Shown here: positions 8,156 to 38,458 of the stretch, piece by piece
How positions within the stretch are numbered: position 1 is the stretch's first letter
Layout: every line of letters begins with the position of its first letter
DNA from: Allocoleopsis franciscana PCC 7113
Lineage (GTDB): Bacteria > Cyanobacteriota > Cyanobacteriia > Cyanobacteriales > Coleofasciculaceae
NCBI RefSeq assembly: GCF_000317515.1
Contig: NC_019741.1
Span: forward strand, 1 to 38,468
DNA: 38,468 nucleotides
Direction: 5' to 3'
Notes under the pieces: generated by a model
What the model was told of the DNA's origin: nothing
Databases searched by the model: none
The model's input: only the letters and a program-made list of their open reading frames with translations
Made by a program: the position numbers and the translations under genes

Positions 8156-8701
8156 TCATTTCCTCTTCTCCTGTCGAAGGCGCAACACAGCGATTAGCTC
8201 TTCTGGATTTTCCTGTGCTTGCTCCAGAAGTCGGGTGATGGCTTCTTCTACAATTACCTCTTTATAAGGAGCGCTGCCCTTACCCAGTTCTAGCTGTAGC
8301 TGCAAATGAAACTTGTCTAACTGCTGCAAGACAGCAACACTTAGTTGGAAAGTAGCCTTACGGATGGCTGACTTGTTGACTTGTTGACTTGTTAGCTTGT
8401 CATCGGGTTGACTTGCTGACTTGTTGACTTGTTGACTTGTTAGCTTGTCATCGGGTTGACTTGCTGACTTGTTGACTTGTTGACTTGTTAGCTTGTCATC
8501 GGGTTGACTTGCTGACTTGTTGACTTGTTGACTTGTTAGCTTGTCATCGGGTTGGGTTGCTGTCTTGTTAACTTCCTGACTTGTTGACTTGTCATCAGGT
8601 TGACTGGCTGACTGGCTCAACTGCTCAAACCCTGCCAAGACTTTATCGGTGGAAGACAACGGGTCATTCTCCTCGTTTAACCGAGCGCGTCTTTTTGCCA
8701 C
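8156..8701 (-). CDS. parB: ParB-like partition partner with repeat region
   Basis: This is a 181-residue protein encoded just after parA and overlapping its end by 38 bases, the place of the centromere-binding partner in type I partition loci. The N-terminal 25 residues are basic and polar. Residues about 30-110 are a tandem repeat of a 16-residue unit (QPDDKLTSQQVNKSAS). The C-terminal domain (about 113-181, starting KATFQLSVAVLQQLDKFHLQ) looks like a small DNA-binding or dimerising helical domain and is not HTH-type ParB. The family assignment is by position and by the DNA repeats, since the fold is not certain. The repeat DNA (8367-8606) contains the same 9-mer as the inverted repeat before parA, suggesting that the protein binds both its own gene and the promoter. 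Confidence 0.7.
   Translation of the reverse strand: MAKRRARLNEENDPLSSTDKVLAGFEQLSQSASQPDDKSTSQEVNKTATQPDDKLTSQQVNKSASQPDDKLTSQQVNKSASQPDDKLTSQQVNKSASQPDDKLTSQQVNKSAIRKATFQLSVAVLQQLDKFHLQLQLELGKGSAPYKEVIVEEAITRLLEQAQENPEELIAVLRLRQEKRK
8367..8606. repeat. 48-bp tandem repeat inside parB-like gene
   Basis: Units at 8367-8414, 8415-8462 and 8463-8510 are identical. 8511-8558 differs at two bases and 8559-8606 is a decayed fifth copy. Each intact unit holds CTTGTTGAC twice with an 8-bp step, giving nine exact copies in all. This 9-mer also forms both arms of the inverted repeat at 9469-9496 before parA. It is a candidate centromere (parS-like) inside the coding region. Confidence 0.85.
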
Positions 8702-9452
8702 GTCGAAGTTCTCCTGTTATAAATGTAGCGATCGCTTTATAGGGGGCCACCAATTTTTTTTCCGACGCATAGTGGTGGATGGGTTCCCCTGCCAGATTCG
8801 ATTCAGCAAACTTGACTGACTTTGGCACGGGGTCAAAGACTGGGATATCCTGAAATCGTTTTTGCAACGAGGCTAAGACATCCTGAGTCATGATGGTGTT
8901 CATCTCTGCCATCGTCGGCAGAATTCCCAGAATCCTCAAACTAGGGTTGATCCGTCGCTGAATACTTTGGATGGTTTCCAGCAGGGAGGCTAGTCCTTTG
9001 AGGGCAAAAAACTGGCACTGGACTGGAATTAAAATGGCATCCGCCGCCGATAAAGCGTTGACCGTCAGCAGTCCTAAGCTGGGTGGGCAGTCAATCAGAA
9101 TGTGTTGGAACTGAGCTTTAGCTGGCTCTAGTCGTTCTTTGAGGATGAGAAAGTTACCAACTTTAGTTAGAAGCTCGGTTTCCCCTTTGGCTAAGGAAAT
9201 GTCAGAGGGTAGCAAGCTGAGTCCGGATTTGGTAGGGATAACTGCCTCCAGAACCTCCGCTTGCTCAGTAATCACGTCATAGGTTGTCAGTTGACCCGAC
9301 TGGACTTCCACACCGAGTCCAATGGTGAGATTCGCTTGGGGGTCTAAGTCAACGACTAGGCAGGAACTGCTCTCTAGCAATAACCCGCCCAGGCAGATGG
9401 TAGACGTGGTTTTTGCTACTCCCCCCTTTTGATTGGCGAGCGCTACAATCAT
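8664..9452 (-). CDS. parA: ParA-family partition ATPase
   Basis: This is a 262-residue ParA/Soj-type ATPase that drives segregation of a plasmid by cycling on nucleoid DNA. The deviant Walker A motif KGGVAKTT is at residues 9-16 with both signature lysines. CLVVDLDPQANLT is the A'-type motif, and HILIDCPPSLG the Walker B region. There is no N-terminal DNA-binding extension, so it is of the short type Ib/Soj class, in which the partner protein often acts as repressor. It is the first gene of a two-gene operon with the ParB-like protein. The promoter region at 9453-9530 carries an inverted repeat that matches the repeat in the partner's gene, consistent with autoregulation. Confidence 0.95.
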   Translation of the reverse strand: MIVALANQKGGVAKTTSTICLGGLLLESSSCLVVDLDPQANLTIGLGVEVQSGQLTTYDVITEQAEVLEAVIPTKSGLSLLPSDISLAKGETELLTKVGNFLILKERLEPAKAQFQHILIDCPPSLGLLTVNALSAADAILIPVQCQFFALKGLASLLETIQSIQRRINPSLRILGILPTMAEMNTIMTQDVLASLQKRFQDIPVFDPVPKSVKFAESNLAGEPIHHYASEKKLVAPYKAIATFITGELRRGKKTRSVKRGE

Positions 9453-9468
9453 AGGTTTTTGGCGTCAG

Positions 9469-9496
9469 CTTGTTGACTGGTTAACTTGTCAACAAG
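9469..9496. promoter_or_regulatory. Operator-like inverted repeat before parA
   Basis: CTTGTTGAC (9469-9477) and its perfect complement GTCAACAAG (9488-9496) are separated by 10 bases containing TTAAC. The site lies 17-44 bases upstream of the parA start. The same 9-mer occurs nine times in the parB-like gene, so one protein probably binds both places. Confidence 0.7.
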
Positions 9497-9671
9497 TCAT
9501 AAAGTCAGCAATATCATCTCAGTAGGGAACCGACAAAGCAAGGATGTGGAGTGATGCTCAGTAGGTTCTTTTTACCACCAATTTTTGTGACATTAGCTAC
9601 CCTAGAAGAGGGTGCTGGAAAAAGTCTCTAGAGGAAGAGGCTGCAACCCGAAGTATTTAGGAAAAAATTGA

Positions 9672-10598
9672 ATGTGGCTGAAGTTCGGCGTTAGTTCTGA
9701 TAACGCCTTGGTTTGTATTGAAGATATCCCCAGTGGCAAAACATCTCTTACCTGTCTGTATTGCGGCGGCGGCTTAACCGCCAAAAAGGGTCGGGTTAAG
9801 GAGCATCATTTTGCTCATACCGACACAACTTGTAAACCCGTTGCCAATCGTGTGGCTTATCGAGATTTTCCCGCTTTACCGCTCTACGATAACTTCAATA
9901 TTCAGTTGTCCGGGAAAGAGTTGGAAGAACTGAAGGTGTTTTGGCTCAACTATGGGGTGAGAAATGAAGGCATTTTTGTCAAGCCTTCTTTCAAATTAAT
10001 TCTCTCGAAGTTGTTAGCTTGGAATGAGGGTGGATTCTATGAATTTACTCCGTTAGGTAAAATTCCTGTAGGAGCGCTTCCCTTAAGGCTATTCAACGAA
10101 GTGCAAGAACCCTCGTTATTGGAAAAGTTAGCTAAATTAGAGCAAGCTGCACAACGCGCTCAACTGATAAATTCTCAATATTTGTCAGAAAAAGTTGCCG
10201 ATTTGAGAATTTACCGCGCTCTCTTGAAACGAATTCTCTTGAATAACCTCTACTTTCTGGAAATCAAAGTGGGTCGGAAACTCTTGCATAAAATCGGGGT
10301 GACGAAGCGACCGATTGAAGAACGAGTGATGGAAGTGCACAGAGATTTAGCCGCTCACTATAAGCGGGTGGACATTCAAGTTTTAGATGTTTGGAAGCAT
10401 CGAGGAAATGTAGAGCTGTACTTCAAGCATCGGTATAAAGACTTCAATTATCGAATTGGGAGTTTGACGGAATATTTCCGGTTTACTGATGTTGAGGCAG
10501 TATTGGATGATTTACGTCAAATGCAGCCGAAAGTTTTAGAACCAGTAGAGATGGATGTGCTGGAGGACAATTTTATCAGTTCCTTATGCCGCCATTGA
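9672..10598 (+). CDS. CoiA-like zinc finger/GIY-YIG type nuclease
   Basis: This is a 308-residue protein with two recognisable parts. Residues about 20-65 resemble the N-terminal zinc finger of CoiA-like competence proteins: CLYCGG, then KKGRVKEHHFAHT and a later Cys. Residues about 190-295 resemble the T5orf172/MUG113 branch of the GIY-YIG superfamily: LYFLEIKVGRKLLHKIGVTK, RPIEERVMEV, then VELYFKHRYKDFNYRIG and EYFRF. In these domains Tyr, Lys/Arg and Glu act in DNA strand cleavage. The first GIY motif here is altered (YFLEI), so activity is uncertain. The middle is helical. Its end overlaps the end of the convergent HetZ-like gene by 15 bases. It could process incoming or plasmid DNA; the job is inferred. 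Confidence 0.65.
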   Translation: MWLKFGVSSDNALVCIEDIPSGKTSLTCLYCGGGLTAKKGRVKEHHFAHTDTTCKPVANRVAYRDFPALPLYDNFNIQLSGKELEELKVFWLNYGVRNEGIFVKPSFKLILSKLLAWNEGGFYEFTPLGKIPVGALPLRLFNEVQEPSLLEKLAKLEQAAQRAQLINSQYLSEKVADLRIYRALLKRILLNNLYFLEIKVGRKLLHKIGVTKRPIEERVMEVHRDLAAHYKRVDIQVLDVWKHRGNVELYFKHRYKDFNYRIGSLTEYFRFTDVEAVLDDLRQMQPKVLEPVEMDVLEDNFISSLCRH

Positions 10599-11816
10599 GT
10601 GGTTAATGCTGTTATTGGAACTTTCTACTGCATTGTTGCGAACCAGACTTGCCATATCTAACAACTGAGTCCAGCGCTTTTGTATCTGTTTCGGTGTAAT
10701 TTTCAGAGCTTTGACAATCTCAAAATCACTTTTTTTCGCCCGTTTGAGTTCCAACAATTGCTGTTGGGTGGGGTCAAGTTGTCCGACAAAGGCGTCCCAC
10801 TGCTTGGATGAGAGTCCCAACTTCTGGTCAACGTCTGCACCTAACCATTGATGTACCAGTTGCCAGTGAGACGTGTGAGCGAATTTTTCCACATGGTACT
10901 TAAAGCGCTGTTGCAGATAGTCCCGTTGGCGGGGTGTTAAACCCATGATTTCGTCGATTTCGGGGGGGGCAAAGTCTTGCAGTTTTAAAATTAAGTAATC
11001 GGCGCAGTCTTTGTGACCCTGACCCTCCAGGTATTGTACTAGCTCACCCACAACGCGCTCGCGCAGAACGGCATCATGAGGGTCTTTGGTTTCAGCCACT
11101 AGACGCTCTCTCACCTGCTGCATCATGGGTGAGCGACTTTGTATCTGTGCTTCTTCGCCTTTGGCAAACTCGGTTACCTGTTCAATGTCCATGACGGTAT
11201 CGGTGGGTTGGCGTTTGGCAAAGCTTTTGGCTCTGAGTACGAGTAATTGCATGGCACCATAGCCGGTCATCACCCGTCGTTTGGCGTATTGTTCAGTAAA
11301 AGCCATGTATTCGGCGAGTTCGATTCGGGTACGAGGGGTGTAGTTGTCAGCGACCTGATTTTCCCGTCTAAAGGCTCTGAGGGAATCGGCGTAAAAGTCT
11401 TGCAGGAAGTCTTCGATTAAATTGCGTCTGGCGGCAAAGCTTAACTGGGCTTGAGCGGGTGCTATTTGGCGATATATCATCACGCTCAGGTTACTGTGGA
11501 GTTCCACACGACCTTGCTTGGAACCGAGATTATAGTACTCAACACACTTAGAGAGGCGATGACGTGCCAAGCTTAACTGTGAGGAACGGACTTCACCACT
11601 CTGTAGAATCCGGTCACTCTTGGTACAAATCCGTGCGACTTCTGCCACGATGCGGTTGATGACGGTTAGAGCATTGCTGGGTAAGGAACCAAGTTGAAGT
11701 GTCAGTTCTTCTTGGAGTAGCTCAGTTAAGGCGGTTGTGTCGATTAGGGTGATATTGTCCTGAGTGGTGTGGGTGGAGGAAGAAGATTGATGATATGAGT
11801 TGGTGGTGGTGTTCAT
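10584..11816 (-). CDS. HetZ-related sigma-factor-like regulator
   Basis: This is a 410-residue protein resembling, from memory, the cyanobacterial HetZ-related family. Landmarks are LARHRLSKCVEYYNLGSKQG, RVELHSNLSVMIYRQI, LIEDFLQDFYADSLRAFRRE, RTRIELAEYMAFTEQYAKRR and MQLLVLRAKSFAKRQP. The C-terminal half is sigma-factor-like: EIDEIMGLTPRQRDYLQQRF, and a final helix-turn-helix in SDFEIVKALKITPKQIQKRW. HetZ controls early heterocyst differentiation in filamentous species, but relatives occur in species that do not differentiate, so no developmental role should be assumed. The N-terminal 30 residues are Ser/Thr-rich and disordered. It is a single gene, convergent with the GIY-YIG gene. The family name is from recall and needs a search. 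Confidence 0.6.
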   Translation of the reverse strand: MNTTTNSYHQSSSSTHTTQDNITLIDTTALTELLQEELTLQLGSLPSNALTVINRIVAEVARICTKSDRILQSGEVRSSQLSLARHRLSKCVEYYNLGSKQGRVELHSNLSVMIYRQIAPAQAQLSFAARRNLIEDFLQDFYADSLRAFRRENQVADNYTPRTRIELAEYMAFTEQYAKRRVMTGYGAMQLLVLRAKSFAKRQPTDTVMDIEQVTEFAKGEEAQIQSRSPMMQQVRERLVAETKDPHDAVLRERVVGELVQYLEGQGHKDCADYLILKLQDFAPPEIDEIMGLTPRQRDYLQQRFKYHVEKFAHTSHWQLVHQWLGADVDQKLGLSSKQWDAFVGQLDPTQQQLLELKRAKKSDFEIVKALKITPKQIQKRWTQLLDMASLVRNNAVESSNNSINHSMAA

Positions 11817-14181: not shown

Positions 14182-17100
14182 TCAAGTGGAGGAATTAGCG
14201 CTCCTCCTCAAAGTATGAGGAGCAAAAGTGTCGTGAATCCCATTTGGTAACCGACATTCCGCTACAAGAGCATTAATATGGACAACTTCCAACTCAATTC
14301 CTTCAAGGTGTTTTAGGGACGGCAGGCCACCAGGATTAGTGAACTGTACCCGATCGCCACTCCGGAACTGCGGAAGATTTTCCGATTCCTCAATACTCGG
14401 CTCTTGCGCCCGCCGATTAGGTTCGGGGGTAGCAAGAGTTACTTCCGGGCTTGATTGCGCTTCAAGGTAAGAAAGGAAGTCTTGCAGCTCGGCATCGCTC
14501 ATGTACTTGCGCGATTTCTTTTTATAGTTCGCGACCAAATAATCACGAATTTGAGCGACCGACCACCCCAGTCTGTGCAACTCCTTGTCTGTGCGCTCGC
14601 TCAACTGATTCCGCTCTTGCTGCTGATGTGTGCCAGTCTGAACGGAACTGTCACACACTTCGGGAACTTCGGGATGGTTAGGGATGGGCATCCCTAAGTT
14701 GTTCCCTAACTTTGTATCGCCTACTGGTTCTACATCACAGCTTTCTTGAGGAGAAATTAGGGATGGTTCGGGAATATACCCCCCCTCTAAAGAAGGTTCT
14801 GACCCTTCTTCACCAGTATTTAAACTAGAAGCTTCTTTCCCAGATAAGTTAGGGATACCCATCCCTAACATCCCTAAGTTGTCCTCAATCCCTTTATTAT
14901 CAATGGTTTCAACTTCGGGATGTATCATCCCTAAGTCATCCCTAACCATCCCTAACATCCCTAAGTTGTCCGGTGGTGGTGGTGGATCATTGCCGAAAGT
15001 GTTATCACTATGCCAATGAAACTCCAAGCGATTTCCAGTCCCACGAGTACGCCCGTGCCCTTGTATCACAGCTTCCTTCATCCAATCTCGTGCCTGTTGT
15101 GCTGATGGTCGTTTTTTGGGTTGGAACTGTTCGCGATACTGCTGTGCTTTAATCCAGCCGTCTTTCCCGTTCGCTTCAAGTCGCTTTGATAATTCGATGA
15201 GCTTGGTGATGTGGCGGGGTAGACTTTCGTCGTCAGAGTCGGCGTGAATCAATTTGACTTGACCGATGTAGAACTTGGCTAAGGCGATCGCCATTTCCAT
15301 GATGTAAAGCGGTATCTCTTCTGATGGGCAAGCTTTACCCGCGTCCAGTTCCCACAGAACATGGAGATTGAGCGCTAGCCGCCCGATGATTCCTTTCATC
15401 TTCGAGTACACCGCCCTCATGCCTGGTTTGGGGTGAGTCACCCGCAGGCGTTCCAGATGGTCGTGCATCGGCTCATAACGCTTAAATGCCGCCCGTGACA
15501 ATCGGTACTCCATTTCTGGAATGCGTTCGACCAGGCGGTAAAAATCGGCAATGCGTGAGCGGATAGACACGGCTTGACCGTCATCATCCCCCAGCGGCGC
15601 AAAAGACAAAGGCTGGTTGACAAATAGGAACCTTGCCCACTGTCCATCTGGGTCTGAGCAGTCGCTCATGTGACCTTTGAGAACATCTGGTTGGATGGTA
15701 CCGAAGATGGAGAGGTAGATTCGCTCAACATCTACCTTTACGCCCGATGCCCGTAAGACCGTTTGACCAGTACCGTCAAAGTAACTGAGTAAATCCTGTT
15801 TATCGCTACCCCTGCCGCCACGATGGGCATTTTCACTTTTGAAGAGTCCTGCCAGTTCATCAATCAATGCCAGTAACGCCTTATCAGGCACCTTACTCGC
15901 TTGAACTGGGATGGCTTCACCCGTGGCATTGGTAAAGAAATAGAGCGTTGGGTCGGCAGGCTTTTTGGGTTTCTTCCCCTTCTCCTCTGATTGCTCCCAT
16001 GCCTGCATAGCTGCCTCATAATCTTCCATCGCAGCTTGATAGACTTCCACTTTCTCACGCCGCAGTTGGTTCAGGGGCTGGCGAATGATATTGGAAAACA
16101 CGGGGGACTTCAGTTGTCCAGATTCGGCCACGAGTGCGGCATACAATATTGGGGGCACCTCAAAATTTTTATTCCGGTGAATGACTAACTCTGTCCCAAC
16201 CTTGTGAAGACTGGACATTCCTGCTAAGAGCGTAGTTAGCGCGACGGCTGGACGGATAGAGAGCCAGTTACACCAGTCAGTTAGGGGGTTAGCCAAAGCT
16301 TCTGGAAGATAATCGGCTAAATTTAACGTTTGGTCGGTTATCTTCAGCAGATTATCAACTTCCGAGCAGTTTGTGTCGCGCTCGCTCTCCAACTCAACTT
16401 CACCCAACCGCTCGTAGTAAAGTTTCCTGAGTTCGCCGACGAAGAACTGGCTGGCTGCGGCAAGAGCGTTAAGCTGCCCCGTTAAATAAGAGCCGGTTGC
16501 ACCAAGGGTTATCAGTTCGTCAATTTTTTCTGTGACCTGCTCAAGAGTCAATGCCTCAAGACTGGGGAGACGTACAACTTTGCCAGTAGGCTCGCCCCCA
16601 TCACCGTCACCACCATCACTGCCGCTGCCACCAGCAACACCATTACCCCGGCGATTTCCACCGCCACTGCCAATGCCACCGCTGAAGCTTTTGCCCGTGG
16701 GCTTATCAAAAGGCGTTCGCCATCCGTCTTGCTTTGCCATGTGTGCCAGCGTTCCAATTGCTACCCCAGACCGTTTGAATGTTTTCCATTTTTTCTGGCA
16801 CTGACCAACCTTGTACTTGGGTGATAATTTGCTCCAGTCGTCCCATTCCAAGAGGAGCGAATCATCATTCAGGCTGTGTAATGCCATACCAACCACCAAC
16901 CAATTATCGTAATCGTCGGCGCGGCTGGGGGATAGGGCATTGAGGTAGGAGAGCGCCCACTGGATGTCAGTCCAGTGTTCCTGAGTATCGGGTTGGCGCT
17001 CGAGTGAGGGTGAAAAGGCTTCCTCGCTTTCTTTCAACATCTGCTCGATAACCCACTTTGGTGCTGGTGCGATCACAACTTCATCCGGAGATTTCCGCCA

Positions 17101-17673
17101 GCGATAGAAGCCAGTTTCTGGATGTACTGATGGGGGGAGTACGCTTTGGCATCCATCCCACCGCAGTTCCAATTTCTGCTCTTTCCCGTCGTCTCCTTTA
17201 ATCCCGGTGCTGATTTTCTTGGTAGCGATCGCGTCCCAATATTCAGTCGGAACATAGAAAAGATATTGGCAGCGACCGGGCTTGTTCGACGTGAAGGCGA
17301 CTGTTTCGGGCAGTGGCACCCCACCGGATAGGTCATTGATTTTGTCGTGAGCCGCAGGACCATCCGCATCGATGGCGATTATCCCGCCTGAGACTTTGCC
17401 TGTGCGTAGTCCGTAACCTTTGGCTTTTCCTGAGTTAATCTCCCTAGTAATCAGCTTGCGCTCAAGTGGTTTTTCGTTTTGCCAGTTCTTTCGGTAGGGC
17501 TGTTTGTTCCCATTCACTGGGGTAAGTGCCCAGTTTTCTGGGATTGATGATAATCCAAGGATTAGCTGATTACTGCGATCGCTCTCGATGACGGAGTTCT
17601 GTGGGCGAGATTCAGGGTGATCGCTTTTATTGGCTAAAGATTGAGCTGAAAATTCTGTGATTGCGGTAGACAT
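14182..17673 (-). CDS. Primase-polymerase/DUF3987 replication protein
   Basis: This is a 1163-residue plasmid replication protein with several parts. Residues about 45-215 are a bifunctional primase-polymerase domain (NWALTPVNGNKQPY, GYGLRTGKVSGGIIAIDADG with the metal-binding Asp pair, and SVLPPSVHPETG). Residues about 233-312 are PriCT-like (WTDIQWALSYLNAL, VGMALHSLNDD). A glycine-rich linker lies at about 320-360. Residues about 440-830 are DUF3987, with a weakened P-loop (ESGQLKSPVF). The C-terminus has NLGMLGM repeats (about 903-998) and an unassigned tail. The protein likely primes and perhaps unwinds at the plasmid origin. A GGAGGA ribosome site precedes the ATG at 17673. The gene itself carries the TCCCTAA repeats at 14678-14964. 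Confidence 0.85.
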   Translation of the reverse strand: MSTAITEFSAQSLANKSDHPESRPQNSVIESDRSNQLILGLSSIPENWALTPVNGNKQPYRKNWQNEKPLERKLITREINSGKAKGYGLRTGKVSGGIIAIDADGPAAHDKINDLSGGVPLPETVAFTSNKPGRCQYLFYVPTEYWDAIATKKISTGIKGDDGKEQKLELRWDGCQSVLPPSVHPETGFYRWRKSPDEVVIAPAPKWVIEQMLKESEEAFSPSLERQPDTQEHWTDIQWALSYLNALSPSRADDYDNWLVVGMALHSLNDDSLLLEWDDWSKLSPKYKVGQCQKKWKTFKRSGVAIGTLAHMAKQDGWRTPFDKPTGKSFSGGIGSGGGNRRGNGVAGGSGSDGGDGDGGEPTGKVVRLPSLEALTLEQVTEKIDELITLGATGSYLTGQLNALAAASQFFVGELRKLYYERLGEVELESERDTNCSEVDNLLKITDQTLNLADYLPEALANPLTDWCNWLSIRPAVALTTLLAGMSSLHKVGTELVIHRNKNFEVPPILYAALVAESGQLKSPVFSNIIRQPLNQLRREKVEVYQAAMEDYEAAMQAWEQSEEKGKKPKKPADPTLYFFTNATGEAIPVQASKVPDKALLALIDELAGLFKSENAHRGGRGSDKQDLLSYFDGTGQTVLRASGVKVDVERIYLSIFGTIQPDVLKGHMSDCSDPDGQWARFLFVNQPLSFAPLGDDDGQAVSIRSRIADFYRLVERIPEMEYRLSRAAFKRYEPMHDHLERLRVTHPKPGMRAVYSKMKGIIGRLALNLHVLWELDAGKACPSEEIPLYIMEMAIALAKFYIGQVKLIHADSDDESLPRHITKLIELSKRLEANGKDGWIKAQQYREQFQPKKRPSAQQARDWMKEAVIQGHGRTRGTGNRLEFHWHSDNTFGNDPPPPPDNLGMLGMVRDDLGMIHPEVETIDNKGIEDNLGMLGMGIPNLSGKEASSLNTGEEGSEPSLEGGYIPEPSLISPQESCDVEPVGDTKLGNNLGMPIPNHPEVPEVCDSSVQTGTHQQQERNQLSERTDKELHRLGWSVAQIRDYLVANYKKKSRKYMSDAELQDFLSYLEAQSSPEVTLATPEPNRRAQEPSIEESENLPQFRSGDRVQFTNPGGLPSLKHLEGIELEVVHINALVAECRLPNGIHDTFAPHTLRRSANSST
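14678..14964. repeat. TCCCTAA (TTAGGGA) iteron cluster in the rep gene
   Basis: Eight plus-strand TCCCTAA copies begin at 14691, 14703, 14862, 14871, 14928, 14939, 14949 and 14958, with three inverted copies at 14678, 14757 and 14849. The last four plus-strand copies are 9-11 bases apart, close to one helical turn. On the coding strand they often read Leu-Gly-Met, but the inverted copies do not. This looks like a set of initiator-binding iterons inside the replication gene. Confidence 0.8.
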
Positions 17674-18449: not shown

Positions 18450-19409
18450 ATGGAAACAGCAGTAATTGCCGTGGATACGGGCAACTATGACCTGAAATTT
18501 TGGAACGGGAGCGGCGACCCCAAAGCCATTCGAAGCGTGAAATTCAAACTCCCACGCGGCAGGCAAGCACTAAAAGCCAACAGCCTCAACCCAGTTGTGG
18601 AGTTAAACTCTGACCGTTACCACTTTGGGTTCCGGGCTTACGATTACCGCAAACAGGTTCACACGACAGAGACAGAGAAAGCCCACGAAATTTTGCTCAA
18701 CGTCCTGGCTTGCGTAAAACCTCTAGCACCAGAGTTCAAGCTTCACGTTCACACCAGTCACCCCCGTCCGGAACTGTTTGAGAAGGAAATTTTAAAGCAG
18801 TTATTGGGAACGCATCAGTATGGACACAACTCCCAGAATGCGACTTCTCACATTGAATCAGTCAGTGTAGAACCGGAAGGGTTAGCGGCTTGGCGATATG
18901 CCAAATCAATCAGGTTAATTCCAGAGCAGGGATTGACCGTCGTGATTGACATCGGTGGAGGCACCTGGCTCAGTCGGCTGATTGATGAGGAAGGCGAGAT
19001 TCTTGATAGTTCGGTATCCGAGCGAGGAGGTGCTTACTCGCTGGCGGCTGATATTAGCTTTGACTCTCGATTGGGAAATGCCATCAATGACCAACCCGAC
19101 CCAGGCGTGATTATGAATGGGTTCGCCAACGGTACTCACTACTACGGTGAAGACCCTAACGCCTCTTGGAAGGATTGGCTGGATGAATACTTAGACCCTT
19201 GGTTTAAAGGCATTTTCGGCAAGGTCAAAACCCAGTACAAGCCGTTCCTGCCTCGCGTTCGTCGGTTCCTGGTCACAGGCGGAAGTTCTCACCTAATCGC
19301 CCAAAAGATTCAGAATATTCCGCTTTTCGCAATGACCACTGAACCTCGGTTTGACAACGTTCGGGGGTTACTCCCCACAGGTAAACAAGCCCAGGTGGTG
19401 AAAGTATGA
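18450..19409 (+). CDS. parM: ParM/StbA-like actin-family partition ATPase
   Basis: This is a 319-residue actin-like ATPase. The phosphate-1 motif is IAVDTGNYDLKFWNG (residues about 6-20), the phosphate-2 motif VVIDIGGGTWLSRL (about 163-176), and the adenosine motif FLVTGGSSHL (about 274-283). Such proteins form filaments that push plasmid copies apart in type II partition. It is the first gene of a plus-strand operon. The next gene overlaps it in ATGA and encodes a ParR-like small DNA-binding partner. The promoter carries an operator for the divergent RHH protein. It is unusual to find this in addition to a complete parA locus 9 kb away. Confidence 0.88.
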   Translation: METAVIAVDTGNYDLKFWNGSGDPKAIRSVKFKLPRGRQALKANSLNPVVELNSDRYHFGFRAYDYRKQVHTTETEKAHEILLNVLACVKPLAPEFKLHVHTSHPRPELFEKEILKQLLGTHQYGHNSQNATSHIESVSVEPEGLAAWRYAKSIRLIPEQGLTVVIDIGGGTWLSRLIDEEGEILDSSVSERGGAYSLAADISFDSRLGNAINDQPDPGVIMNGFANGTHYYGEDPNASWKDWLDEYLDPWFKGIFGKVKTQYKPFLPRVRRFLVTGGSSHLIAQKIQNIPLFAMTTEPRFDNVRGLLPTGKQAQVVKV

Positions 19410-35941: not shown

Positions 35942-38458
35942 TTATTTTCTAACAATATCGATTGGTAATAACAAGGTATCTTCTATTTTCTGCCGTACCT
36001 CACGACTCACATAACAATCGCTATTTAGGCAATCAACAAGTAGCTGATTGGCAGAGTAATACTGAGACAACAGTTCCAACTGTGGTTGAGTGAACTGCCA
36101 ATCATGCCCAATATTTCGCTGTTCAATCATCACATCATTTAGCTGCTTAATCCAATTTTGACCATTAACTTGCCACCATTGCAGGTATATCTCATTACTC
36201 TCTTCACTGTTGTTTAAATTAGGCAGTTGAGCTTTTAGTTCTTGCAGAGGGTGCTGTAGTTCAGCTTCGAGGGCGCTGTCGAGGGCGCTGGTGAGGGCGC
36301 TGTCGAGGGCGCTGGTGAGGGCGCTGGTGAGGGCGCTGGTGAGGGCGCTGTCGAGGGCGCTGTCGAGGGCGCTGGTGAAGGCGCTGGCGAGGGCGCTGGC
36401 GCTGTCGAGGGCGCTGTCGAGATCGAGGGCGCTGTCGAGATCGAGGTCGAGGTCGAGGTCGTCGCGGGTGAGGGCGCTGGCGTTGGTGAGGGCGCTGTCG
36501 ATGACGCGGGTGAGGTCGCTGTCGAGGTCGAGGTCGTCGCGGGTGAGGACGTGGGTGAGCATGTGGGCGATGTTCCTGGTGATGGCGAGGGCGCGAGTGC
36601 TGGCGAGGTCGCTGTCGAGGGCGAGGGTGAGGTCGCTGTTGAGGGCGAAGCTGCTGGCGAGGGTGCTTTCAAGGTAAAAAGCCCGCACAGAGGCTGGTTT
36701 ATAAGCCACTTTCATAGATAGGGATTTTTGTTTTAACCAGGAGAGAAACTCTTGTATTTTTTTGTCTGAAGCTACGAGTTCATCCGTCTTATCTTTCATC
36801 GATAGCAATAAATCACCCGCATCAGATAACATACCAACGGCTAACAGAAAGACTTCCCGCCAACGCTTTTCAGTGATGTGATTCGCTAGGATTTTCAGTT
36901 GCTCTAAAGCTTGTAACGCTGGGGTATCAACGATTTTCTTAGCCGTAAAATATTCCTGGAACGTTAAGTGAGAGAAGGAATAAATACCTCGTGCGCGTTC
37001 TACCAGTAATCCATGTTGAGCTTCGATGGACTTCAGTACTGCTTCACTGTCTAACCGTAATGCCTCTGGGTCAGTTTTGGCTTCAGGCAAATTCCGAATG
37101 TAATCGCTAATATAGCGTTCGATATCTCTTTGCTTGAAGAAGTAATCCTTGCGTTTGAATGTAGTCCAGGCAACATCACTCAGTAAATCTTCTTTATGCC
37201 GAACTGATAGTTTTTTGTAGATTTCATCTCGTTTAATTCCACGCTTGCTGTCCCATTTTCTCAACAGGGTGTGAATTGCCCTGTTATATAACTCGGCGCG
37301 GTCGGATGGGAAATCGCCAGAATCCTCAAACTCTAAGCACAGCAAGGTCAGCAGCAAAGGATTGGTAGCTAATTCCTTAATGGGCTGGTTTGACTCCAAC
37401 TCTTGTACAAATTGTTCAGCTACCTCTAATTCTTCCTTACCAAACCATTTATTAACAAATGTTTTAATTTGCTCATCATTAAAATCAGCGACTTCTACTT
37501 CAACAAATTGTTCAAGGGTATATTCCCTTGCTGCAATTCGACAGGTGATGAGAAACTGATTCGTGTGATACTGAGTAGAAAATTCTTTAATCTCTTGTAG
37601 AACTCGGTCGCTATCCTCTTCTCTAACTTCATCTAGACCATCGAGTAAAATCAAGGCTCTGCCTTGATTGATGAATTCCGATATTGGAGTATTCGTTATG
37701 GACTCTTTAGTAAACTCGTGATTTATGAATTCTAATAAGCTTAGTTTTTCACTGTTTTCAGCAAACTGCTTAAGGGTAATAAACAATGGAACTCGGTCGG
37801 ATTGAAATTCAGCACAGATACATTGAATCGCCAGGTATTTCAGGAATGTTGTTTTCCCAGCTCCTGGTTTTCCCAAAACCATTAACTTAGGGTAACGATT
37901 TACGGCATCTAGTCCTGGTACTCTCTGTTGAGTTTGACCTAACCCACAACGATTGAAGTCTTCTTTCTCTGGGTCAAAAGCTTGCAAGAGGTCAGAAAGA
38001 TTCAACCGTGTGCGCCCAGTAATTTTCTCCAGAATGTTGACATCAGTGTAAATATCATTTAACCCAATGGGCTGTTCCATATCCAGCACGCGCATTTTGC
38101 CGCAGCGTTCTTGAATAAGAGGCTTGACTTTTTCGCGTATCTCCTGCACTAAGGCATCTATATCTTTATCGCTATTTAAAGTCTCATTAATTGCAGAAGG
38201 ATGAGTTTTTTGATATTCCCCAATCAGAAAATCACGTAATCTGTGAAATTTACCTGGACCCTTACCACCTATGCTGAACTTGTTGTAGACCCCAGTCATG
38301 CGAGTGCGGAAAGCTGCTGGAGAAATGTGGAGAGACTTAGCGGCATCCGATTCATCCCCCTTGATACTAAATCGCTGAACAAACGCCTGCTTTTGCTCCG
38401 GGGAAAGCTCGTATTTCTTAGCCAACTGATTGAGAAAATCCTCTGGTAGCAGGTGCAT
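35942..38458 (-). CDS. NACHT ATPase, likely antiphage sensor
   Basis: This is an 838-residue protein. The N-terminal 90 residues are a sigma-like or HTH region (FRTRMTGVYNKFSIGGKGPG). The NACHT ATPase follows: Walker A VLGKPGAGKTTFLKYL (about 192-207), Walker B ALILLDGLDEVREED (about 260-275), and the QFLITCRI sensor region. Helical winged parts run to about residue 580. Residues about 600-735 are a run of Ser-Ala-Leu-Asp/Thr repeats, followed by a unique C-terminal domain of about 100 residues (QWWQVNGQNWIKQLNDVMIE). NACHT proteins of bacteria (bNACHT) are known antiphage systems. It converges on hsdR with 15 bases between. The window ends ten bases beyond its start, so the promoter is missing. 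Confidence 0.85.
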   Translation of the reverse strand: MHLLPEDFLNQLAKKYELSPEQKQAFVQRFSIKGDESDAAKSLHISPAAFRTRMTGVYNKFSIGGKGPGKFHRLRDFLIGEYQKTHPSAINETLNSDKDIDALVQEIREKVKPLIQERCGKMRVLDMEQPIGLNDIYTDVNILEKITGRTRLNLSDLLQAFDPEKEDFNRCGLGQTQQRVPGLDAVNRYPKLMVLGKPGAGKTTFLKYLAIQCICAEFQSDRVPLFITLKQFAENSEKLSLLEFINHEFTKESITNTPISEFINQGRALILLDGLDEVREEDSDRVLQEIKEFSTQYHTNQFLITCRIAAREYTLEQFVEVEVADFNDEQIKTFVNKWFGKEELEVAEQFVQELESNQPIKELATNPLLLTLLCLEFEDSGDFPSDRAELYNRAIHTLLRKWDSKRGIKRDEIYKKLSVRHKEDLLSDVAWTTFKRKDYFFKQRDIERYISDYIRNLPEAKTDPEALRLDSEAVLKSIEAQHGLLVERARGIYSFSHLTFQEYFTAKKIVDTPALQALEQLKILANHITEKRWREVFLLAVGMLSDAGDLLLSMKDKTDELVASDKKIQEFLSWLKQKSLSMKVAYKPASVRAFYLESTLASSFALNSDLTLALDSDLASTRALAITRNIAHMLTHVLTRDDLDLDSDLTRVIDSALTNASALTRDDLDLDLDLDSALDLDSALDSASALASAFTSALDSALDSALTSALTSALTSALDSALTSALDSALEAELQHPLQELKAQLPNLNNSEESNEIYLQWWQVNGQNWIKQLNDVMIEQRNIGHDWQFTQPQLELLSQYYSANQLLVDCLNSDCYVSREVRQKIEDTLLLPIDIVRK
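36269..36660. repeat. 12-bp tandem repeats in the NACHT gene
   Basis: GAGGGCGCTG occurs about 14 times between 36269 and 36497, mostly with a 12-bp period and alternating with GAGATC or GAGGTC units further on. Less regular units continue to about 36660. On the coding strand it gives Ser-Ala-Leu-Asp and Ser-Ala-Leu-Thr units. Such a repeat is prone to copy-number change, in units of four residues without frame loss. Confidence 0.85.

Follow-up and report, generated by a model that had tools for sequence, protein, structure and literature searches.

A predicted ribbon-helix-helix partition protein of cyanobacterial plasmids may carry its main DNA-binding array within its own gene

What is the role of a long tandem repeat placed inside the coding sequence of a gene that stands directly behind parA? 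The question is raised by a locus on a 38,468-bp contig (C4) of a 7.97-Mb genome in 9 contigs, and this whole contig is the window analysed here. Its gene content (parA, a replication-type Prim-Pol/DUF3987 gene, an integrase and an actin-like protein) suits a plasmid, and the contig ends have no terminal overlap that proves circularity. The actin-like protein (18450-19409; weak Pfam ALP_N match, 0.00012) is a second candidate segregation gene on the contig. The same plasmid-like contig encodes a HetZ-related protein (10584-11816; NCBIfam HetZ_related 2.5e-180, slightly below the cut-off), and a NACHT-domain gene (35942-38458) contains, at 36267-36663, 12/18/24-bp repeats encoding a SALDSALTSALTSALDS-type repeat. 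Scanning for promoters and terminators was uninformative: promoter-like sites numbered 3, where shuffled sequence gave 1.3. The original prediction located a parB-like gene carrying its own putative centromere at 8367-9496; the array does lie inside that span, but the span also takes in parA and the operator, because the parB-like gene itself occupies 8156-8701 on the minus strand. The features are:

8156-8701, minus strand: parB-like gene, 181 aa, GTG start; basic conserved N-terminus, repeat linker and C-terminal predicted ribbon-helix-helix (RHH) domain
8159-8365, minus strand: C-terminal predicted RHH domain, 69 aa (AlphaFold2 pLDDT 89.7; structural alignments to CopG/NikR)
8367-8613, minus strand: 8-bp lattice array in the parB-like linker, CAAGTYAR on the coding strand, proposed centromere
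8612-8701, minus strand: conserved N-terminal segment MAKRRARLNEENDPLSSTDKVLAGFEQLSQ of the parB-like protein (homologue alignments; predicted helix 16-30)
8664-9452, minus strand: parA, encoding a 262-aa Walker-type ATPase that has no DNA-binding domain at its N-terminus
9460-9507, no strand assigned: operator-like 8-bp lattice just before parA, units in both orientations, including the inverted repeat 9469-9477 / 9488-9496
14182-17673: Prim-Pol/DUF3987 replication-type gene

The parA product, whose ATG is at 9452, matches Pfam AAA_31 (1.5e-52) and the PHROG ParA-like partition protein (9.6e-47) and has the Walker motif NQKGGVAKTT at residues 7-16. The parB-like gene follows directly and overlaps the 3' end of parA by 38 bp. 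A ParA-family Walker ATPase gene with an adjoining or overlapping partner gene, the arrangement of type I (ParABS) systems, was found here and in the homologues that could be checked. The name ParB-like, under which the partner was first described, should be used with a proviso: the prediction is of an RHH protein, and no ParB domain can be recognised in it. The ParB/RepB/Spo0J HTH domain was absent in Pfam and NCBIfam scans, which places the protein outside the HTH-ParB family; moreover, Pfam, NCBIfam and PHROGs gave no family for it, Pfam gave no RHH match, and its profile found no match among PDB sequences.

Structure models were made from sequences of the window and genome loci only. The C-terminal 72 residues (AlphaFold2 pLDDT 89.7) are modelled as an extended start, helices at 13-30 and 38-55, and a third helix. 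Foldseek gave no significant match with this C-terminal model, and in a second-look alignment the closest solved structures were StnY, NikR and CopG (1.4-1.6 A over 42-45 residues). Two of these, CopG and NikR, are RHH proteins; both rank within the top five, superposing at 1.5-1.6 A on 42-45 residues with Z of only 4.1-4.8. Given these modest second-look scores and the lack of significance in Foldseek by itself, an RHH (strand-helix-helix) domain is likely but not proven. Modelled at full length, the protein is helical at residues 16-30, and residues 34-114 have a pLDDT of ~40 and no secondary structure; the linker is predicted to be disordered, and the N-terminal segment is likely to be the part that contacts ParA.

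The repeats had been noticed as a 48-bp tandem unit containing nine copies of a 9-mer that recurs as an inverted pair before parA, and these numbers all check out. The tandem repeat covers 8367-8613 (5.1 copies, 93% matches), exact CTTGTTGAC occurs at 8372, 8380, 8420, 8428, 8468, 8476, 8516, 8524 and 8580, and two further copies, at 9469-9477 (+) and 9488-9496 (-), form an inverted repeat 17-44 bases 5' of the parA ATG. Within one mismatch the window has 26 copies of CTTGTTGAC, against 9.65 ± 2.76 in dinucleotide shuffles (0/100 shuffles reach 26), and the pair CTTGTTGACTTGTTGAC is found nowhere else in the 7.97-Mb genome. What did not hold is the 9-mer as the repeat unit: the unit is 8 bp, 48 bp being six 8-mers, and the 9-mer was rejected in favour of an 8-bp lattice (GTNNACNN) with the consensus CAAGTYAR. 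In 8-base blocks the coding strand of the array begins AACAAGTC AACAAGTC AACAAGTC AGCAAGTC AACCCGAT GACAAGCT and continues unbroken for ~250 bp. The region before parA reads in one register as TGACTTTA TGACTTGT TGACAAGT TAACCAGT CAACAAGC TGACGCCA, the inverted repeat being part of a ~48-bp lattice (9460-9507) in which the unit stands in either orientation. The fixed letters GT..AC..GT..AC are present on both strands, hence forward and reverse units share one lattice.

To place the locus among its relatives, 46 distinct related loci, 38 of them with usable linkers, were compared; they came from tblastn against plasmids, which located the C-terminal domain on 10 cyanobacterial plasmids, from 26 loci of a GTDB scan, and from whole-genome searches, which added more. 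The titled records are nearly all cyanobacterial; L043, from a metagenome-assembled genome (MAG) labelled Gracilibacteria, is close to L042, from a cyanobacterial MAG. No relatives were found among viral contigs. Wherever the contig allows the check, parA stands directly before the parB-like gene, the exceptions being three short-linker loci (L039, L056, L057) and a truncated match (L059). Before parA, in 26 homologous non-coding upstream regions, 149 units were counted versus 61 in shuffles, and neighbouring units are most commonly spaced by 8 on the same strand and by 12 on opposite strands (26 loci), which again implies one shared lattice. The locus thus has, ahead of its par operon, the iterated direct and inverted repeats of RHH-type (type Ib-like) systems. 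In the 38 linkers CAAGTYAR was observed 236 times versus 21.7 ± 4.4 expected when identical peptides were recoded at the codon frequencies of the adjacent parA genes, and the excess is significant locus by locus in 18 of the 19 listed loci (p < 0.02). The exception, L066, is a divergent homologue with a cognate parA and a short linker without the motif. Across the cyanobacterial homologues one degenerate 8-mer, with a similar position-specific tolerance, is common to the array in the gene and to the non-coding DNA 5' of parA. The original proposal of one protein for both regions is in this way strongly but indirectly supported; binding, repression and centromere activity are inferred.

Several relatives present variations in the layout. 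In Synechococcus PCC 7502 (L013:1800-2040 and 2780-2910) the 5' end of parA is duplicated before the intact gene, and lattice-like repeats in the parA-parB gap are a possible non-coding part of the array. At L062, 137-82 bases before parA, a tandem of four TTGACGTG followed by TTGACTTG is a non-coding version of the array in a one-base variant. The Tolypothrix PCC 7910 homologue (L012:2347-3585) has 412 aa and a linker in which an in-frame macro-repeat of 135 bp recurs about five times, and the parA of Nostoc sp. MS1 (L007:2210-2980) is apparently frameshifted, with two open pieces and no gene annotation.

The reading favoured here, with a probability of about 0.75, is that of a partition locus, composed of parA and an RHH centromere-binding protein, in which the main protein-binding array lies inside the coding sequence of the binder. 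By analogy with RHH repressors and with RHH ParBs on tandem iterons, dimers of the predicted RHH protein would bind side by side on the continuous 8-bp lattice; on the short lattice before parA they would repress the parAB operon, and on the long intragenic lattice, which encodes the disordered linker, they would assemble the partition complex. The N-terminus, basic and conserved, would then engage ParA-ATP on the nucleoid, and the plasmid would be moved. The partition systems taken as analogues for this mechanism are the RHH-type ones of TP228 and pSM19035. Support for the intragenic array as the main centromere comes from the four replicons scanned whole, since it is the densest cluster of the motif in each: motif density peaks at the parB-like gene in all of them.

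The protein might instead bind both arrays with the intragenic one acting in regulation, as a silencer or as a titration sink for autorepression, and with the true centromere elsewhere or in the upstream lattice. This is rather unlikely, even if it agrees with the described type Ib systems, whose centromeres lie upstream of the operon (PMC5016525), and with the upstream lattices present here. In pSM19035 at least four contiguous heptads are needed for full ParA activation and four are enough (PMC9499535); consequently the upstream lattice could be sufficient. The intragenic array of the present locus has far more units than four. Yet in 4/4 whole replicons the intragenic array is larger and denser than the upstream lattice, and it is kept in every locus tested singly save L066. 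If it is the centromere, the whole centromere would not lie upstream of the operon, as it does in type Ib systems.

A competing explanation is a microsatellite born by slippage that encodes a disordered spacer, where only the peptide, or nothing, is selected and the DNA pattern is a by-product. It would account for a linker predicted to be disordered and widely variable in length, and for the recent in-frame duplications of 48 bp or longer in some arrays, as here and in Tolypothrix PCC 7910. However, slippage by 8 bp would break the frame, and the degenerate motif is also present in the non-coding DNA before parA, in both orientations and in one register. The 8-bp period of the 38 linkers (identity 0.474 at lag 8, 0.445 at lag 16 and 0.481 at lag 24) is weakened by synonymous shuffling, which drops the lag-8 identity from 0.474 to 0.373 ± 0.003. 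Units are found in all three codon phases, and 66-76% of the variance in conservation in these linkers is explained by 8-mer position versus 2-4% by codon position; third codon positions are conserved as much as first and second ones, and synonymous and amino-acid-changing sites are equally conserved by 8-mer position.

The four-fold degenerate sites speak against the microsatellite in the same sense, since they agree across lineages whose parA four-fold sites are nearly saturated (identity 0.316 versus 0.252 by chance). At 8-mer position 7 such sites have A in 113/117 cases and at position 6 Y in 77/81, and the picture is the same when units are picked by the other seven positions. The per-locus majority base is common to the lineages in 16-19 of 19 at most 8-mer positions, and parA control units do not show this. 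Position 6 responds clearly to the reading frame: T drops to 2/124 solely in the phase in which it would give TAA/TAG, versus 63/94 where it is synonymous. Comparison of synonymous sites in relatives, which had been proposed with the original prediction, thus found the repeat motif kept at the DNA level. The outcome named there as contrary, a peptide kept while the motif is lost by synonymous change, is the minority for the most telling peptides: motif codons are kept in 25/28 cases of NKS and in 14/14 of DKS, where parA codon usage would predict ~2%. In longer peptides these codons are less completely retained, yet far more often than expected (KSTSQ, 9/33 versus 0.1%). Tandem duplication also shapes the array and its units, sharing ancestry, are thus not independent, a kinship to which the between-lineage tests answer in part. 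The conservation by 8-mer position, the motif excess (236 versus ~22) and the four-fold bias set against saturated parA show that selection acts on the linker DNA, as expected of a binding array, and they leave the microsatellite improbable.

A stronger version of the favoured reading, a translated centromere, is put forward tentatively and may well prove too strong: the linker would need only disorder, and its amino acids would be dictated by the protein-bound DNA lattice. If so, the length of the centromere would evolve by in-frame expansion in multiples of 24 bp, with the protein following.

Short tandem repeats on plasmids are often replication iterons. That the array is of this type, or that it determines incompatibility through a replication initiator, is very improbable and was rejected because the parB-like gene has no Rep domain and its array-bearing copies follow a cognate parA where the contig allows the check; in addition, the Prim-Pol/DUF3987 gene lies elsewhere on the plasmid.

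The association with ParA is restricted to one lineage. When plasmids are ranked by ParA similarity, the top ten (67-75% identity) coincide with the ten that carry the predicted RHH protein, whereas the next ParA lineages (50-59% identity) are paired with ParB-type proteins and their loci have scattered motif matches only. As the RHH protein tracks one ParA lineage and the next ones have ParB-type partners, an exchange is suggested whereby an HTH ParB would have given way to an RHH protein equipped with iterons of its own. The array is absent from six short-linker relatives (L036, L039, L053, L054, L056, L057). Their ParA is divergent or there is none, and at least L057 is on a chromosome-sized contig; L036 still has a ACTTGTTGAC-like sequence before its divergent ParA. 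The tblastn matches on Pseudomonas syringae plasmids were rejected as homologues because they match a non-coding 8-bp CTCACAAC array before another small-protein and ParA-like operon. This array, of ~34 units (L015:2970-3245, L016:2935-3260), stands directly before that operon and may represent a parallel arrangement whose iterons lie outside the gene.

If the favoured reading is true, the locus would be a clear example from nature of one stretch of DNA that serves as a centromere of many sites and also encodes its own binder, with the DNA role shaping the protein, and synonymous recoding alone could tell the two roles, of DNA and of peptide, apart. The reading would name a partition module of cyanobacterial plasmids, whose protein family is annotated only as hypothetical, and provide a motif to search with and, for cyanobacterial vectors, a candidate stability cassette.

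The met boxes of MetJ are 8-bp tandem RHH sites, as proposed for the present array, and the origin of phage lambda has its binding iterons inside the binder's own gene, O; the functions differ, MetJ being a metabolic repressor and O a replication initiator. The closest partition systems are TP228 parFG-parH and pSM19035 delta-omega-parS, which, like the present locus, combine a small ParA with an RHH centromere-binding protein (predicted here) that has a flexible N-terminus, and in which iterated short direct and inverted repeats serve as operator and centromere (PMC5389482, PMC9499535, PMC5016525). Their repeats are upstream or in promoters, whereas the largest array here is inside the RHH gene and encodes the linker; the pSM19035 unit is the 7-bp WATCACW, the present one 8 bp. 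Centromeres inside the gene of their own binder have been described in Bacillus subtilis (parS-359 in parB; PMC4442127), SCP1 (parS1 in parB1; PMC13245405) and SCP2 (parS in parT, ParT being without a CTPase domain; PMC12260392). These are single sites in HTH-ParB or ParT genes, in contrast with the long tandem array and the non-HTH protein of this locus. The par locus of Myxococcus pMF1 likewise has 8-bp iterons (AGATGTCT-like), some of the bound ones inside ORFs, and an autorepressing DNA-binding ParB, for which no recognisable relatives were found at the time (PMC3235114); the pMF1 iterons have a different motif and are located around the par genes and within ORFs other than parB. The literature search returned no report of a tandem array forming the linker of an RHH centromere-binding protein, and no description of the cyanobacterial parB-like family. 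Hence, the intragenic centromere is a known principle, and strong comparative evidence from sequences points to the iterated array used as an RHH linker as a new form of it.
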